A stretch of DNA of 45,600 bases. Source: an uncultured Anaerolineales bacterium. Its GTDB lineage: Bacteria > Chloroflexota > Anaerolineae > Anaerolineales > UBA4823. Position 1 is the stretch's first letter; every line of letters starts with the position of its first letter. This document shows positions 865 to 7,945 of this stretch, piece by piece. The DNA is taken from the NCBI GenBank assembly GCA_903872065.1, contig CAIQJJ010000567.1, forward strand, positions 1-45,600, in the 5' to 3' direction. A program made the position numbers and the translations under genes. The notes under the pieces are model-generated. The model had not been told where the DNA came from, did not search any database, and saw nothing but the letters and a program-made list of their open reading frames with translations.

Positions 865-898
865 GATGCTTTCGATAACTATCATTATCGAAAGCATC
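865..898. other. Perfect palindrome with dif/lox-like geometry beside a tyrosine recombinase gene
   Basis: The left arm GATGCTTTCGATAA (865-878) and right arm TTATCGAAAGCATC (885-898) are exact reverse complements around the 6-base centre CTATCA. The outermost spacer pair happens to be complementary, so the site can also be read as 13-8-13, 34 bp in total. Pairing extends imperfectly outward to 861 and 902. Inner arms ending ATAA and starting TTAT around 6 bases match the core layout of bacterial dif sites. The asymmetric centre would give the site a direction. It lies 21 bases before the recombinase start codon. It could instead be an operator or a 5' mRNA hairpin. Confidence 0.6.
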
Positions 899-919
899 AG
901 GATGCTACAGGAATTTACT

Positions 920-1900
920 ATGAGTACAGTTGAAAATGCCATCCAGGATTATCTCCAAACCATCTTTGCCGCGCGCAGTGAACAAACCCACCGCACCTAT
1001 CGGAATGCCCTGCGCGCCTTTGAACTTACCTTATCCACCCACGATCTCCCCCCTTCAACGACTCCCCCTACCCGATTACCTGAGGAAGCAATTGCCTGGT
1101 TTGCCGCTGATCTAAAAGGCAGCGCCGCGGCTACCGAACGCCTTTATTTGACCGCCGCCATGGGTTTTTATGAATACCTGGCGGCTGAAGCGCTGGCGAC
1201 GCCGAACTTGCCGCGTTTACGCCTGTTAATTCGCACCCGGGCGCGTAAGACTGGTCAACGTCTGCCGCAGTTTCCGCGTGAAGACATCGAAAAGGTTCTT
1301 GAATATGCAAAAAATATTGCAGAACGAGAATCAGAGAGCAAAGAAGAACGACTGATCGATCTGCGCGACCGCGCCTTTTTAATCACTTTGGCCGACACAG
1401 GGCTGCGCGTCCATGAGGCGTGTAAGCTGCGGCGCGGCGATATTGACTGGAGGGAAGGCCGCGCAGTGATTATTGGCAAAGGGGATAAACAAGCAGTAGT
1501 GCGCTTTTCACGGCGCGCCCTGACAGCGTTGAAGGACTACTTGGGGACGCGGGCAAGCCTGGACGGCGCGTCGGGCAAACCACTGGGTTCGCTGCCAGTG
1601 TTTGCCCGCCACGATAAAGGCGCCGGCAAAAAAGTGAAAGGGATTACCCCCACCAGTGGGCGAAACATTGTCGCCCAACGAGTGCAGGAGGCGCTTGGCG
1701 AAGAGGCAGTGGGAACGATTACCCCGCATTCTTTCCGCCATTATTTTGTCACAACGGTGCTGCGCGCTTCAGGAAACCTCAAGCTGGCGCAAGAACTGGC
1801 GCGTCACAGCAATATCGCGGTGACGCAGCGCTACGCGCATCTTTCGGATGATGAGTTAGACCGGGGGTATGGGGAGATTTTTGACAATCCTAACGAATGA
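920..1900 (+). CDS. Tyrosine recombinase, XerC/XerD/integrase family
   Basis: This 326-residue enzyme should cut and rejoin DNA through a 3'-phosphotyrosine intermediate. Residues 5-105 look like the SAM-like core-binding domain and 115-320 the catalytic domain. The catalytic set is visible: R163 in TGLRVHE, K187 or K190 in GKGDK, H270 and R273 in HSFRH, H296 in ARHSNI, and the nucleophile Y305 in TQRYAHL. A histidine rather than tryptophan at the fifth position is Xer-like, not Cre-like. The ATG at 920 was chosen because it has AGGAA upstream and begins the family-like N-terminus. An in-frame ATG at 809 would translate through the promoter and palindrome. No transposase, plasmid or phage genes flank it, so it resembles a housekeeping or solitary recombinase more than a prophage integrase. 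Confidence 0.92.
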   Translation: MSTVENAIQDYLQTIFAARSEQTHRTYRNALRAFELTLSTHDLPPSTTPPTRLPEEAIAWFAADLKGSAAATERLYLTAAMGFYEYLAAEALATPNLPRLRLLIRTRARKTGQRLPQFPREDIEKVLEYAKNIAERESESKEERLIDLRDRAFLITLADTGLRVHEACKLRRGDIDWREGRAVIIGKGDKQAVVRFSRRALTALKDYLGTRASLDGASGKPLGSLPVFARHDKGAGKKVKGITPTSGRNIVAQRVQEALGEEAVGTITPHSFRHYFVTTVLRASGNLKLAQELARHSNIAVTQRYAHLSDDELDRGYGEIFDNPNE

Positions 1901-2002: not shown

Positions 2003-2812
2003 ATGCTACAAACTATCTGGTTCTTTGTTTCAGCCTGGTATAACTTGCCATTCACTATCTTATTGGGGTTAGGGCTATTTTTGGCGCTATTACAGCTTGG
2101 TGGTTTAGGCGGCGGCGACGATTCAGACGGCCACGATTTAGGGCATGATGTCAATCATGATCTCGACCATGACCTGGATCATGATTTCGCTCATGATGTG
2201 GATCATGACTTGGATCATGATGTAGATCACGATTTAGATCATGATCTGGGCCACAATGGCGCAGGGGAACATGTGATTGAGCCCATCAGCGCCGATGGCA
2301 GCGCTGATCATGGCGATGGCGCGCATGGCGACGCGGATCATTTCTCTTTGCTGGCGTTTATTGGCATAGGCAAAACCCCCTTGTTGGTTGTGTTACTAAT
2401 TCTCTTTGCCTCAATTGCCTTGCTGGGTTGGTTATTCAATGGTGTGCTGGGCGCAGTATTTGGCGGGTTTCCTGGCCTGTTGATCTTTTTCACCGGCCCA
2501 ACGGCGCTTATCTCTGGCGCGCTGCTTACTTCGCGCGTCACACGTTTTATTGGAAAAACACTTCCGCCAATCCATACCACGGCAACCCGCGCCCTGGCGC
2601 TGGTTGGAATGACAGGCGTTGTTATCAGCCCGTACATAGATGAAAAGTATGGCATGGTGCATCTGCGTGACCAGGGTGGGACGCTGATCAGCATTTTTGC
2701 GGTTACAGATGAAACGCCGCCGATTCCACGCGGCGAAAAAGTATTGTTGGTCGCTTATCAAAGCGCCGAACGGCGTTATCAGGCGCGGCGCAAACTGCCG
2801 CTCAATCAGTAG
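2003..2812 (+). CDS. YqiJ/NfeD-like membrane protein with a His-Asp repeat
   Basis: This 269-residue protein probably partners the flotillin encoded just downstream, as NfeD/YqiJ proteins do with flotillins. A membrane helix spans residues 15-33. Residues 44-84 form a tetrapeptide repeat of the type HDxD, with about ten histidines and more than ten aspartates, ending at HN85. Two or three further helices lie at about 115-180. The C-terminal 190-265 looks like the OB-fold of this family. AAGGA precedes the ATG by a suitable distance. The His-Asp segment is unusual for the family and could bind divalent metal; that is inference. It could be absent or different in close homologs because repeats of this kind expand and contract. 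Family assignment rests on the architecture plus the YqiK-like neighbour. Confidence 0.8.
   Translation: MLQTIWFFVSAWYNLPFTILLGLGLFLALLQLGGLGGGDDSDGHDLGHDVNHDLDHDLDHDFAHDVDHDLDHDVDHDLDHDLGHNGAGEHVIEPISADGSADHGDGAHGDADHFSLLAFIGIGKTPLLVVLLILFASIALLGWLFNGVLGAVFGGFPGLLIFFTGPTALISGALLTSRVTRFIGKTLPPIHTTATRALALVGMTGVVISPYIDEKYGMVHLRDQGGTLISIFAVTDETPPIPRGEKVLLVAYQSAERRYQARRKLPLNQ
2132..2254 (+). repeat. In-frame tandem repeat encoding HDxD units
   Basis: A degenerate 12-base unit of the form GATCATGATYTR recurs about ten times with silent and Asp/Leu/Val changes, encoding His-Asp-x-Asp tetrapeptides. Reading frame is preserved throughout, so it is protein-coding rather than a CRISPR-like array. Confidence 0.85.
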
Positions 2813-2835
2813 TCAGAGCTTCAAACCGGCAATTT

Positions 2836-2870
2836 TGGTATTCGCTCGCCGGTGCATATCCCGAATACCA
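2836..2870 (+). promoter_or_regulatory. Hairpin abutting the flotillin ribosome binding site
   Basis: TGGTATTCG (2836-2844) and CGAATACCA (2862-2870) are perfect complements with a 17-base loop. The last base of the right arm is the first of the AGGAG Shine-Dalgarno sequence at 2870-2874; the ATG is at 2881. The hairpin could tune flotillin translation or protect the mRNA after processing. There is no U-run, so a terminator is unlikely. Confidence 0.5.
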
Positions 2871-2880
2871 GGAGATAAAT

Positions 2881-4953
2881 ATGGAACTTTTCTTCGTTTA
2901 TGGCTCAATTACATTTGTTGTCGTCTTTTTAGTGCTGTTGGTGTTGGTGCGCTCAGTCATGAAAGCGTATGTCAAAACGCCGGCCAACCGCGCCTTCGTG
3001 CGCACTGGCGGCTTGACCTCCAAGACGAATGTCCCCCCCAGAGTCGTGATGAATGGCGGCGCCTGGGTATTTCGCTCTATTCATGAAGTCACCTGGGTAG
3101 ACCTGGGGACCATGGCGATTGAAATTGAACGCACCGAAAATAACGCCCTGCTGACCAAAGACCCACAGTATGCAGATATCAAGGCGATTTTCTACATCAA
3201 AGTCAATCCGACGGTTGAAGGGATCACCGATGCGGCGCGTACAATTGGCGGCAAACAGGTGGATGCAACCGCTGTCAAACAATTGGTGGACGCCAAGTTG
3301 GACGGCGCCTTGCGGGATGTCGCTGCTTCCTTTACCCTGATGAGCCTGCACCAGGAGCGCGAGAAGTTCATTCAAGAAGTGCAGAACCGTTTGAAGACCG
3401 ATCTGGAGGAGAATGGTCTGGTGCTGGAAGCGGTTTCAATCTTGACGCTGCGCGCTGCCCGGCAGGGTTCCTTCGGTACCGATGATGTCTTCGGGGCGCA
3501 GGTGGCGCGGGCCAATGCCCAGGTTATCTCGCAGGCTTTGCGCGAACGAAACGACATTGAGCGGCGCGCCGAGGTTGAGGTGAAGCAGCGCGACACCGAA
3601 ACCGCCAAGATGCGTCTGGATTTGGATCGCCAACTGGCTTTGGCTGCCGCAACGCAAGAGCGCGAGGTGCGCAGCATCCAGGCGACCGAAAAGGCGCTGG
3701 CAGAACGCAATGAGTACGAGGAAATACAAAAATCCGAAATGGCGCGCGTTTCCAAAGAGCAAGCGGTGGCCTTGAGTGAGATTGCCCGTGACCAGCAGGT
3801 CGCCATTCAAAATGAGCGCAAACAGCAAGAGGTTATGGCTACCGAAGTGCTGCGTCGCCAGGCCATCGAGTTGGCCGAACAGCAGCGCCAGATCGTGGTG
3901 CTAACCGAGCAGCAAAGACGTGAGAATGCAGAAAAGGAACGCCTGGTCGTTTCGGCGCAGCGTGAAGAGGCGGCTCAGGCAGTCACCACCGTGCAAGCTA
4001 CGCAGACCGCTCAACGCGAAGCGAAGATTAAGGTGATCGAGGCCGAGCGCGAGGCGCAAAAGGCCATGATTGAGCAAAAGAACAAGATTGAATTGGACGC
4101 CCTGCGGAAGCAGCGTGAGGCGGAAGCGCAAGCCAAAGCTTTGAAAGAGATTGCCGCGGCGGAGGCTGAAGCCGCCCTGAAGCAAGCTGAGACGCTGCGT
4201 ACCCAGGCCCAGGCTGAAACCGAGGCCGCCAAGCTGCGCGCCGAAGCCGCCAAAGCCACCGCTTCGGCGAATGGTTTGGCGGATGCCGATGTGCTGCGCG
4301 CCAAGGCCGAGGCGGCCATGCGTGAAGCTGAGGCGGTGCGCGCCCGAGGCCTGGCGGAGGCGGAGGCGGAGAAAGCCAAAGCAGAAGCTTTGGCTGCCTT
4401 CGATGGTGTGGCGCAGCGCGTGGAAGTGCTTAAGCTTCAACTTGACGCCCAAATGCGGATCGAGATTGCCCGGTCGCAGGCGCTTGGTTCAGCGCTGGCC
4501 TCGATGAATATCAAGATGATCGGCGACCCCACCGCGGCTGCTTCACTGCTGCGCATGGTTACATTTGCAGATGGTATGGGTGAAATCTTGAACCATACCC
4601 CAGAACCGATCAAGGAGATTGGGCAGCAGTTGGCGACCAAGTTGACTGGTCAGCCGCTGACTGGCCCGGCGGCGACTGCATCGGCTGCCGGCGGGGCGCT
4701 CGATGAACCCAAAATCGCCGGCCTGGCTGAAGTCGCCCAGTTATTACCAGAAATAATCCAGATGGTTGAAAAGAAGCTCAATTTGGATACAGTTAAGAGT
4801 CTCTCTGTGAAAGAAGTGCTTGAGCAGCTCAGCCAGAAGGCCACGCGCAAAGAGAAGCAAAGCCTGGATAAAGTACAGCAGGCTCTAGCGCAGCTACCTG
4901 TGTTGAATGATCTACCATTTGAAGAGCTATACCTGCGGATGGCAGCCAAATGA
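2881..4953 (+). CDS. Flotillin/SPFH-domain membrane scaffold, YqiK type
   Basis: This 690-residue protein is a bacterial flotillin: a membrane-anchored scaffold expected to oligomerise and organise membrane microdomains. Residues 4-26 are a single N-terminal membrane helix. The SPFH domain follows at about 35-230, including GAWVFRSIHEVTWVDL and a long conserved stretch to LTLRAARQ. Residues 230-550 are an Ala/Glu/Gln/Arg-rich coiled coil with repeated EAEA and AKAEA units. A Gly/Ala-rich linker near 600 leads to a C-terminal extension (about 610-690) rich in Leu and Lys that E. coli YqiK (553 residues) would not have room for. The start has an excellent AGGAG. The gene ends by overlapping the next by four bases (ATGA), implying coupled translation with the PspA-like protein. 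Confidence 0.93.
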   Translation: MELFFVYGSITFVVVFLVLLVLVRSVMKAYVKTPANRAFVRTGGLTSKTNVPPRVVMNGGAWVFRSIHEVTWVDLGTMAIEIERTENNALLTKDPQYADIKAIFYIKVNPTVEGITDAARTIGGKQVDATAVKQLVDAKLDGALRDVAASFTLMSLHQEREKFIQEVQNRLKTDLEENGLVLEAVSILTLRAARQGSFGTDDVFGAQVARANAQVISQALRERNDIERRAEVEVKQRDTETAKMRLDLDRQLALAAATQEREVRSIQATEKALAERNEYEEIQKSEMARVSKEQAVALSEIARDQQVAIQNERKQQEVMATEVLRRQAIELAEQQRQIVVLTEQQRRENAEKERLVVSAQREEAAQAVTTVQATQTAQREAKIKVIEAEREAQKAMIEQKNKIELDALRKQREAEAQAKALKEIAAAEAEAALKQAETLRTQAQAETEAAKLRAEAAKATASANGLADADVLRAKAEAAMREAEAVRARGLAEAEAEKAKAEALAAFDGVAQRVEVLKLQLDAQMRIEIARSQALGSALASMNIKMIGDPTAAASLLRMVTFADGMGEILNHTPEPIKEIGQQLATKLTGQPLTGPAATASAAGGALDEPKIAGLAEVAQLLPEIIQMVEKKLNLDTVKSLSVKEVLEQLSQKATRKEKQSLDKVQQALAQLPVLNDLPFEELYLRMAAK

Positions 4954-5591
4954 AGCTATCTCAACGGCTGACCACGCTCGTCAAGACCGCGATCAACGAT
5001 GTGCTGGGCGAGGAAACGGTAGTGGAGGCGCGGCCGCCCGGTCGCGCCTCAAAAAACAGCGCGGCGGAGCAGTTGGCCGAACGGTTGAGCGAAGCGCAGG
5101 CGCGCCTGGACGCACTGCAAGTCGAGTTGGCTGAGGCGGTGCAGCGTGAGGAACGTGTAATGCGTGAATGGCAGTCCGTTCGGACACATGCCGAAGAACT
5201 GGATCTATCTGTAGATATTGCTCTACAGGCCGGGCAGGACGAAAAAGCGCGGCAGTTGCTGCAGCGAGCGCGCCAGGTTGCTGCCAGCGCCCAAGAGTTG
5301 GCCGAACTGCGCCAGGCCTGCGAAGCCTTGAGCCAGCAGATCCGCTCGGCCCTGGCTTTTCAGCAAAACCAATTGGATATGTGGAACAGCCGCTACCAGG
5401 CTTTCAGCCTGCGCGAGCGCAGCGCCGAGGCGTTGGAAGAAATGCTGCAAGTTCAACGCGAGATCTCCAGTCAAAGCGAGGCGCTGCACGAGGAATTCCA
5501 GGCGCAGGAAGAACGGCTTGCCCAGCGCGAAGATCGCCTGGCGGCGCGCCGCGAGTGGTTGGCAGTCAAAAAGGACAATGACCGTGAGTGA
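4950..5591 (+). CDS. PspA/IM30-like coiled-coil protein
   Basis: The 213 residues are almost entirely helical, with no membrane segment. The segment around ALQAGQDEKARQLLQRA (residues 88-105) matches the helix-turn signature of the PspA/IM30/Vipp1 family, and the overall length is close to the usual 220-240. The N-terminus MKLSQRLTTLVKTAIND is amphipathic, like the membrane-sensing helix of PspA, although residues 25-45 are more Pro/Gly-rich than in typical members. By family, such proteins coat and stabilise stressed membranes. The gene starts inside the flotillin stop and overlaps the following gene by 14 bases, so the products are probably made together. Remote similarity only; a generic coiled-coil partner of flotillin is the alternative. 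Confidence 0.7.
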   Translation: MKLSQRLTTLVKTAINDVLGEETVVEARPPGRASKNSAAEQLAERLSEAQARLDALQVELAEAVQREERVMREWQSVRTHAEELDLSVDIALQAGQDEKARQLLQRARQVAASAQELAELRQACEALSQQIRSALAFQQNQLDMWNSRYQAFSLRERSAEALEEMLQVQREISSQSEALHEEFQAQEERLAQREDRLAARREWLAVKKDNDRE

Positions 5592-6105
5592 TCCAACGAG
5601 CAAGGCCGCGACTGGCCGACAGCCTTTGACCAGCGAACAAGAACGGATGTTGGATGAGTTGGTAAGCCTGGCTGCCAATCATCCGACCGACAGGGCGCGC
5701 CCCTCGCCGCAGGTCGCTGTAAGCCAGGCGGCTGAAGATTGGCTGCAAACCTGGTTTGGCGTCTCATTTCAGGATGTGCAGCCGGTCATTCAGGCTTTCA
5801 TCCAGCAAAAAGATAACGCCCAACAGCGTTTGATTGATTGGGTTGAGGCCAATCCATTAGATGCCAGTCTGGAGTTCTTGACGGCGGCTGCATGGGCGTT
5901 TTACCTGGCCGAAAAAGACGAGAATCCGAAAATTACATCCTATGTGGATGCCTTTTACTATATCTCTACCTGCGCCTCGGTAGGATATGCGGATATTTTT
6001 GCTGTCACCCAGACTGGACGCGCCATTGCATCCCTGGTGATGATTGTCGGGCCGGCGATGGCGGCGCATTCTCTGGATCGGGCTAAAAATAACCCTCATG
6101 ACTGA
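5578..6105 (+). CDS. Small two-helix ion-channel-like protein with an altered selectivity filter
   Basis: From ATG 5578 the product is 175 residues. Residues 1-90 are soluble and probably helical. Residues 96-112 form a first membrane helix, 121-132 a pore-helix-like segment (SYVDAFYYIST), 134-139 read SVGYAD, and 148-164 form a second membrane helix. The order helix, pore helix, filter, conserved TGR, helix is that of the potassium channel pore domain (Ion_trans_2), whose filter is normally TVGYGD. Here Thr is Ser and the second Gly is Ala. No RCK or cyclic-nucleotide domain follows. It sits in a four-gene membrane module and shares coding overlaps with both neighbours, ending inside the ATGACTGA junction. 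Selectivity cannot be predicted; it may be a sensor or an inactive pore. GTG at 5584 is an alternative start. Confidence 0.7.
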   Translation: MTVSDPTSKAATGRQPLTSEQERMLDELVSLAANHPTDRARPSPQVAVSQAAEDWLQTWFGVSFQDVQPVIQAFIQQKDNAQQRLIDWVEANPLDASLEFLTAAAWAFYLAEKDENPKITSYVDAFYYISTCASVGYADIFAVTQTGRAIASLVMIVGPAMAAHSLDRAKNNPHD

Positions 6106-7945
6106 TCGAATTGAACTTCTTGCGCCGGCTAAAGACCTCAGCGCCGGGCTTGCCGCCATCAGTTGCGGCGCGGACGCCATCTACGTCGGCGCGCCGCGTT
6201 TTGGCGCTCGCCAGGCAGCCGGCAACAGCCTTGACGATATTGCGCAGTTGGTCAGCTATGCGCATCGTTATTGGGCAAAAGTTTATGTCACCCTGAATAC
6301 ACTGCTTTTTGACGCTGAGTTGGATGAGGCGGTAAGCCTGGCCCATCGGCTTTACCAGGAAGGCGTAGATGCGCTGATTATCCAGGACGTGGGCTTGCTA
6401 GAGAGCGATCTGCCGCCTATCCCGCTTTTCGCCAGTACTCAGATGCACAATCACACGGCAGCGCGCGTTGCATTCTTAGAAAAAGTGGGCATTCAACGCG
6501 CCATCCTGGCGCGTGAACTTAGTCTTGAGCAAATTCAGCAAATTCGCGCCGCCACCTCCATCGAGTTGGAAACTTTCATTCATGGCGCCTTGTGCGTCTG
6601 TTACAGTGGGCAGTGTTCCTTGAGCTATGCAATGGGAGGACGCTCTGGCAACCGAGGACAGTGCGCCCAACCCTGTCGCAAGGCTTATCGGTTGGAAGAT
6701 GGCAGTGGGAAGGTCTTGCAAGAGGCGCGCTATCTGCTTTCATTGCGTGATCTGAATTTGACCGATGACTTGGAGAGTCTGTTAGCAGTTGGAGTCACTT
6801 CCTTCAAGATTGAAGGCCGTTTGAAAGACCAGGCCTACGTCATGAACGTCGTGGCGCATTATCGAAAAAAATTGGATGGGATTCTGGCGGCGCGCAATCT
6901 CAAAGCCGCTTCTTCCGGCCACTGTCAGTTTCATTTTGTCCCAGATCCTCACAAAACCTTCAACCGGAGCTATACCCCCTACTTTTTGCACGGGCGCGGC
7001 AAAGCCTTAACCGCCTGGGATACCCCCAAATCTGTTGGGGAAGCAGTCGGAACCGTTGTCGCGCTCGAAAAGCGCTGTTTCACACTCGATGGAACAGCCT
7101 CTATCGCAGCCGGAGATGGGCTGTGCTGGTTGGATGAACAGAGCGAGTTGCAAGGCGCGTTTGTCAATCGTGTGGAAGGAAACTGTATTTACCCAGAAAA
7201 GCTGGATGGTCTTTCTCTGGGTGTGCAGGTTTACCGAAATTTTGATCGGATGTTTTTGGCGCGTTTGACGGCGGATAAACTGCCTGAGGTTGTCGAGCGT
7301 TTCATTAGGGTAGATATGGTGTTCGGTGAGTTTGAGCAGGGTTTTTGGCTGCAGGTCATGGACGAGGATGGAAACCAGGCCCGCGTTGAAGTCGAAAACG
7401 CTAAAATTCCTGCTGAAAAGCCAGTCCAAGCGAAAGCGAATATCGAGAAACAATTGCGCAAGTTGGGCGGGAGCATCTTCACCTGCGCCAGTCTGAAAAT
7501 GGAATGCCAGACGATTCCCTTTTTGCCAGTGGCTGCACTTAACGCGCTGCGGCGTGCGACGATTGAAAAGTTGCATGAGGCCAGAGAGCATCATCGCCCC
7601 CACCCCACCGGCGGGCCTCAAATCAACAACATCTATTATGGTGCAGACAATCTCGACTTTCGCGCCAATGCTTTGAATCAAAGGGCGGTCAACTTCTACC
7701 AGCGGCATGGCGTGAAGCGCATCGAGCCGGCCGCCGAATCGGGTTTGGATCTGCATGGGCGGCGGGTCATGACCACCAAATACTGCCTCCAATATGAATT
7801 GGAGGCCTGCCCGCGCCGGGGGCAGAAGGCAATCTCTCCCTCTCCATTGGTTTTAGTAGATGACGACGATAACCGTCTTTCACTGCGCTTCAACTGCGCT
7901 GATTGCGTGATGGAAATTTATCTTGATGATTTAGAAGGAGATTGA
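6098..7945 (+). CDS. U32 family protein, RlhA-like (23S rRNA hydroxylation type)
   Basis: This 615-residue protein belongs to the peptidase U32 family. Most characterised members are tRNA or rRNA hydroxylation enzymes with Fe-S cofactors rather than proteases. Residues 1-300 form the TIM-barrel-like domain starting RIELLAPAKDL, with the U32 signature at about 160-195 containing four cysteines (CVCYSGQC, RGQCAQPC). A DUF3656-like region lies at about 440-510. The C-terminus carries paired cysteines, YCLQYELEAC and NCADC, expected Fe-S ligands. Length and architecture fit RlhA, whose E. coli member acts at C2501 of 23S rRNA. ATG 6098 was chosen because the N-terminus then begins at the conserved strand and overlaps the previous stop by eight bases. 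Its relation to the membrane module upstream is unclear. Confidence 0.85.
   Translation: MTDRIELLAPAKDLSAGLAAISCGADAIYVGAPRFGARQAAGNSLDDIAQLVSYAHRYWAKVYVTLNTLLFDAELDEAVSLAHRLYQEGVDALIIQDVGLLESDLPPIPLFASTQMHNHTAARVAFLEKVGIQRAILARELSLEQIQQIRAATSIELETFIHGALCVCYSGQCSLSYAMGGRSGNRGQCAQPCRKAYRLEDGSGKVLQEARYLLSLRDLNLTDDLESLLAVGVTSFKIEGRLKDQAYVMNVVAHYRKKLDGILAARNLKAASSGHCQFHFVPDPHKTFNRSYTPYFLHGRGKALTAWDTPKSVGEAVGTVVALEKRCFTLDGTASIAAGDGLCWLDEQSELQGAFVNRVEGNCIYPEKLDGLSLGVQVYRNFDRMFLARLTADKLPEVVERFIRVDMVFGEFEQGFWLQVMDEDGNQARVEVENAKIPAEKPVQAKANIEKQLRKLGGSIFTCASLKMECQTIPFLPVAALNALRRATIEKLHEAREHHRPHPTGGPQINNIYYGADNLDFRANALNQRAVNFYQRHGVKRIEPAAESGLDLHGRRVMTTKYCLQYELEACPRRGQKAISPSPLVLVDDDDNRLSLRFNCADCVMEIYLDDLEGD

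Follow-up and report, generated by a model that had tools for sequence, protein, structure and literature searches.

A palindromic site precedes a Xer-type recombinase gene

Near the left end of the window, by which we mean the whole 45,600-nt stretch of Anaerolineales DNA analysed, a gene for a Xer-type tyrosine recombinase follows a promoter and a palindrome resembling dif. The features are listed below in window coordinates.

833–861, + strand: sigma-70-type promoter, TTGACA-17-TATCCT, whose -10 box ends 4 bp before the 32-bp core of the site
864–899, no strand assigned: dif-like recombination site, a 15-6-15 palindrome with a conserved core at 866–897
864–878, + strand: left arm TGATGCTTTCGATAA, predicted recombinase binding site (from the letters and arm comparison)
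879–884, + strand: central region CTATCA, predicted strand-exchange region (family consensus GTATTA)
885–899, - strand: right arm (TTATCGAAAGCATCA on the + strand), predicted recombinase binding site (from the letters and arm comparison)
920–1900, + strand: Xer-type tyrosine recombinase of 326 aa, with a SAM-like core-binding domain and a catalytic domain

A preliminary description of this DNA had noticed a palindrome upstream of the recombinase, with 14-bp arms around a 6-bp asymmetric centre. The palindrome is indeed present at 864–899 and its 6-bp centre is non-palindromic, but the arms are 15 bp long. The full site of 36 bp reads TGATGCTTTCGATAA CTATCA TTATCGAAAGCATCA, with perfect arms that a repeat search extended imperfectly to 23 bp, and 20 bases lie between it and the recombinase ATG at 920. 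A stretch of 45.6 kb should contain, by chance, about 4e-5 perfect inverted repeats of 15 bp with a fixed spacer. A search for further copies, as had been proposed, found only this one in the source genome (7.5 Mb in 927 contigs) with up to 3 mismatches allowed, and the relatives usually had a single copy as well.

The catalytic set of the recombinase, described earlier as complete, was confirmed as R163, K187, H270, R273, H296 and Y305, each kept in at least 98% of 101 orthologs. The best named family models all scored under their cut-offs, namely XerC with 134 bits (cut-off 335), XerA with 122 bits (220) and XerD with 115 bits (330), and the XerS model gave 56 bits against a cut-off of 267. 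Alignment with XerH was weak (E 6e-6) and poorer than with XerA and XerD, and no XerH family model appeared among the model matches of the recombinase. In the phylogenetic tree, the family formed a clade apart from E. coli XerC and XerD and from the XerC/D-type genes of three families of the order, f3, f4 and f11 (support 99/96). The top structure matches of an AlphaFold model (mean pLDDT 85, pTM 0.63) included archaeal XerA, an integron integrase, XerH and XerD; since the superposition was loose, the model supports the fold only.

Site and gene are conserved as a unit in one order of Anaerolineae

Orthologs of the recombinase were found throughout one order of Anaerolineae (Chloroflexota), occurring in 66 of the 101 genomes searched, nearly always one each and including two distant matches with 33–36% identity; a further 80 loci were taken from named Anaerolineae/Chloroflexota records. 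With a weight matrix trained on the regions upstream of the orthologs, the site was found within about 360 bp of the gene start in 81 of 101 non-identical ortholog loci, so the palindrome, whose absence upstream of orthologs had been named as evidence against the proposal, is kept. These sites scored 23–55, while the highest scores were 4 in shuffled sequences and 10 in randomly sampled genome sequence (2.4 Mb). They had the consensus ATGCTTTCGATAA-GTATTA-TTATCAAAAACAT, in which TAA and TTA at the inner ends were invariant. A pattern search of genomes detected the site, usually as a single copy, in 50 of the 101 relatives and in 166 of the 261 genomes of the order, and the reversed-pattern control gave 1 and 2 matches, respectively, among the matches listed. 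About a third of the 261 genomes had no site at the pattern stringency used.

The symmetry of the arms emphasized in the preliminary description holds fully for the window but is usually imperfect in the relatives; overall, perfect arms occurred in 8 of 81 loci and the mean was 2.4 mismatches in 13 bp. Within the inner 11 bp the mean was 2.0 mismatches per locus, as against 5 in E. coli dif. The left arm was somewhat better conserved than the right (20.6 vs 18.9 bits), a bias similar to that of XerS and H. pylori XerH, both reported to prefer the left arm (PMC5357621). It was also noticed that in five loci (L048, L059, L066, L069 and L076) a variant site lies roughly 0.4–0.5 kb upstream of the gene, with the inner ends CTTAA/TTAA in place of GATAA/TTATC, possibly reflecting a co-evolved specificity.

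A palindrome in a 5′ leader could also act as an RNA hairpin, for example in an attenuator, and the strand does fold at -25 kcal/mol (z -5.6). However, columns 4/29 pair in only 32 of 81 sequences, columns 7/26 and 8/25 pair in 45 of 81, which is near the shuffled value, and both arms hold to one protein-site consensus. An RNA hairpin was rejected because changes in one arm mostly occur without a compensating change in the other, and we regard its probability as negligible.

Flanking genes varied between species, the commonest neighbour family being present in only 13 of 43 loci; because the neighbouring genes are unshared, the conserved unit is the site plus the gene. In L100, L096, G023 and G097, site and gene are separated by 1.6 to 68 kb with their orientation unchanged. 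The separated sites lie at G097 C1:287394, G023 C108:184, L096:5960 and L100:8389, and the intervening genes in L096 and L100 were ordinary-looking.

The site lies at the replication terminus in relatives

Origin and terminus were fitted to GC minus AT skew in six single-contig genomes with 20 sample points each, a sampling step giving a resolution of about 0.1 Mb. In four of the five closed genomes with usable skew the site was at the GC/AT-skew terminus, the distance from module to fitted terminus being 0.00, 0.01, 0.02 and 0.04 half genome in G075, G093, G048 and G197, respectively. In G372 the distance was larger, at 0.20 half genome or about 0.4 Mb, and G012 gave no usable skew fit. At a terminus, GC skew must be higher on the left than on the right, in either orientation. 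This was observed for 9-kb flanks in 35 of 37 loci, compared with 60 of 120 random samples (p=2e-7, an optimistic value given the partial dependence among related loci). Short flanks gave no informative AT-skew difference, and the position of DnaA was an unreliable origin marker in several genomes. The GC skew of the window itself showed no switch at the site, being positive for about 9 kb rightward, and the contig has 863 bases to the left of the site. Evidence for a position near the terminus, for which a GC skew analysis had been suggested, comes from the relatives.

FtsK-orienting motifs converge on the site

The FtsK of E. coli takes its direction from KOPS motifs, which surround dif and point to it from both sides, and GGGNAGGG is the motif read by the FtsK proteins of E. 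coli and V. cholerae (PMC5357621). In 57 site-bearing loci, copies of GGGNAGGG directed toward the site outnumbered those directed away from it by 321 to 30, and by 188 to 3 within 2 kb. With the recombinase gene left out the ratio was 269:30, compared with 152:178 in random samples, and the small skew alone could not produce so strong an imbalance. When the 56 possible sequences composed of six G, one A and one N were compared, GGGNAGGG ranked first in polarity; the polarity switch included the site in all 22 loci that had five or more motifs, and motif density near the site was about six times background. In L100, where the site is 1.6 kb from the gene, the motifs converge on the site and not on the gene. 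Two other candidates, GAGAAGGG and GAAGAAG, were not oriented preferentially toward the site. A motif scan of the window located the following copies near the site.

190–197, + strand: KOPS-like GGGGAGGG, pointing at the site
713–720, + strand: KOPS-like GGGAAGGG, pointing at the site
1066–1073, - strand: KOPS-like motif (CCCTACCC on the + strand), pointing at the site from the right, within the recombinase gene

Thus, within 1 kb of the site the window has two motifs on the left and one on the right, all site-directed, and those farther away are mixed. The FtsK-gamma domain was present in 96 of the 101 relative genomes. Most genomes of the order, as sampled by these 101 relatives, carry two FtsK-gamma genes. 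The terminus position, the drop in GC skew across the site and the convergence of GGGNAGGG are three independent signals that mark the site as a dif site.

One recombinase or two

Chromosome dimer resolution depends on two recombinases in most bacteria. A full XerC/XerD set elsewhere in the genome had been named as evidence against a one-protein system, and the search found no gene over the curated XerC or XerD cut-offs in the source genome or 100 relatives (101 genomes). The recombinase had also been called a lone one, which holds insofar as no gene exceeds those cut-offs but not with respect to the eight other Phage_integrase-domain matches in the genome. In families f3, f4 and f11 there is one XerC/D-type gene scoring 245–306 bits, below the cut-off, which is located close to ftsK in G040, G047 and G094 at least; in f3 and f11 it is found in place of the ortholog, and f4 can carry both. 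Loci L121–L127 are from these three families, the XerC/D-type gene there replacing or accompanying the present recombinase. A search upstream of the XerC/D-type genes in f3, f4 and f11 revealed no comparable palindrome. Judging from these genes, the single-recombinase state is not universal in the order, some families having a second, XerC/D-type gene.

It was therefore considered whether the recombinase forms one half of a XerC/XerD pair, with another recombinase of the genome as its partner. One of the eight other Phage_integrase matches reached 150 bits against XerD, and a second Xer gene occurs in families f4 and f5, near ftsK where visible. Against such a partnership, the two arms are near-identical (2.0 mismatches in the inner 11 bp as opposed to the 5 of E. 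coli dif), those other recombinases of the source genome that the tree included do not belong to the XerC/D clade, and in the single-contig genome G093, which carries ortholog and site, thresholds of E 1e-40 for XerD-like and 1e-52 for XerC-like genes revealed no further gene of either type. Taken together, a pair of this kind is unlikely.

Promoter and site overlap

Promoters with at least 10 of 12 matches were found upstream of the site in 34 of 81 loci and in none of the shuffled sequences. The spacing of 4 bp between the -10 box and the site core, present in the window, recurred in 26 of the 56 loci with a promoter match. Because the site starts beside the -10 box and transcription would start inside it, recombinase bound to the site should block transcription of, and so repress, its own gene. 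The exact spacing could also mean that the palindrome serves solely as an operator for autorepression by the recombinase. However, the site is kept in the loci where it lies 1.6 to 68 kb from the gene, and an operator needs neither the terminus position nor the FtsK-orienting motifs that converge on the site; a purely regulatory role is thus very unlikely. As a second role, autorepression would be compatible with dimer resolution as the main function.

A proposed dimer-resolution module and known Xer systems

Most probably, with a probability of about 0.9, the site and the gene constitute a single-recombinase Xer/dif chromosome dimer-resolution module of Anaerolineae. The earlier suggestion of a one-protein dif/Xer-like system is supported by the conservation, the terminus position in relatives, the convergence of FtsK motifs and the usual single copy, with recombination as a prediction. 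From the sequences, we infer binding, FtsK activation and strand exchange, as well as the autorepression described above, to proceed in the following way. Two molecules of the one recombinase would bind the two near-identical arms of the site. Once a chromosome dimer had formed through replication and an odd number of crossovers, FtsK would load on the GGGNAGGG motifs directed at the site from either side and pump the terminus across the division septum; once two sites had met, it would activate the recombinase. Four recombinase molecules would exchange strands across the 6-bp centre through Tyr305, turning the dimer into two monomers.

In streptococci and lactococci, XerS/difSL consists of one recombinase and a site that adjoins its gene, lies at the terminus and depends on FtsK (PMC5357621). 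The present module is similar in having one recombinase, a dif-like site beside the gene and a terminus position, whereas difSL has an 11-bp centre and unequal arms in contrast to the 6-bp centre here, and lactococcal FtsK reads an A-rich motif instead of GGGNAGGG (PMC5357621). XerH/difH of Helicobacter and Campylobacter likewise combines one recombinase with a nearby site and is FtsK-dependent (PMC5357621), but XerH is longer (354–362 aa, PMC5357621, vs 326 aa) and the arm sequences of difH are unlike those found here. Archaeal XerA/dif shares the single recombinase and the 6-bp centre, and XerA is the closest solved structure by sequence and fold, but XerA acts without FtsK (PMC5357621) and the score of the present recombinase is well short of the XerA cut-off (122 vs 220 bits). 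XerL/dif of Legionellales likewise relies on a single recombinase, and its site, with arms in perfect dyad symmetry, lies at the terminus (PMC9765430), as is broadly the case here; however, gene and site are more than 400 kb apart in Legionella pneumophila (PMC9765430), whereas they are usually adjacent in Anaerolineae. With E. coli XerC/XerD/dif the module has in common the ATAA and TTAT inner ends, the 6-bp centre, the terminus position, FtsK-gamma and the orienting motif GGGNAGGG, and it differs in its one recombinase, which belongs to a separate clade and scores below both curated cut-offs, and in its near-symmetric arms.

For Chloroflexota, the dif sites predicted in a survey that covered only strains with XerC/XerD were confined to three Dehalococcoides (PMC3025954), and nothing else relevant to Xer/dif in Chloroflexota or Anaerolinea was found in the open-access literature. 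The Xer/dif system presented here appears to be undescribed so far. Single-recombinase dif systems in that literature come from streptococci and lactococci, epsilonproteobacteria, Legionellales and archaea only, to which Anaerolineae would add another, belonging to a large group that is mostly uncultured. On balance, we favour the view that a separate single-recombinase lineage in Anaerolineae replaced a XerC/D-type system within one order, its dif doubling as an operator through a fixed promoter-site spacing and its E. coli-type FtsK-orienting motifs being kept. Two Xer types would then trade places within one order, and the overlap of promoter and dif would make it possible to test how site occupancy relates to recombinase level. 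The site could moreover serve as a terminus marker for many assembled genomes, and a one-protein system with a nearly symmetric 32-bp site could be used as a compact recombination tool.

Neighbouring genes and viral contigs

An alternative that had been put forward as counting against the idea is that the gene belongs to an integrated mobile element, as an integrase with its attachment site. Such an origin would be consistent with a 52-kb viral contig, L296, which encodes a recombinase of 54% identity closely preceded by a degenerate site. On the other hand, the neighbours of the recombinase in the window are ordinary, non-mobile genes and differ between species elsewhere, nearly every genome has at most one ortholog, across many families, the module lies at the terminus in relatives, and a second, flanking copy of the site is absent from the source genome. 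We therefore consider an integrated element extremely unlikely and retain the dimer-resolution module as the preferred reading.

On L296 the recombinase gene (4953–6170) has the degenerate site ATGCTTTCGGTAA gtattc CTACCATAACCAA directly upstream and adjoins genes for a DNA methylase, a GH25 lysin-type hydrolase and a beta-helix protein, an apparent phage capture of the chromosomal site and gene. A 25.7-kb viral contig (L295/L297) has a perfect Anaerolineae-type site, CATGGTTTCGATAA GTATTA TTATCGAAACCATG, near its end (about 99–132 of L297) next to portal, head and tail genes, and is a candidate for a phage exploiting host Xer. Mobile elements are known to exploit dif. Both contigs would fit with this, their integration being putative. 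A related palindrome with outer arms like TTAGTTCCGATAA was observed next to portal-like genes in viral contigs L294 (about 870–905) and L291 (about 1709–1744). Most viral matches to the site pattern (L292, L293) were set aside because they were not full sites of the Anaerolineae family.

Downstream of the recombinase in the window, the region 2003–5591 encodes a YqiJ-like membrane protein, a Band 7/flotillin protein and a weakly PspA-like protein, with a promoter of their own at 1923–1950 (TTGACA-16-GATAAT). These genes probably form a membrane-stress operon.
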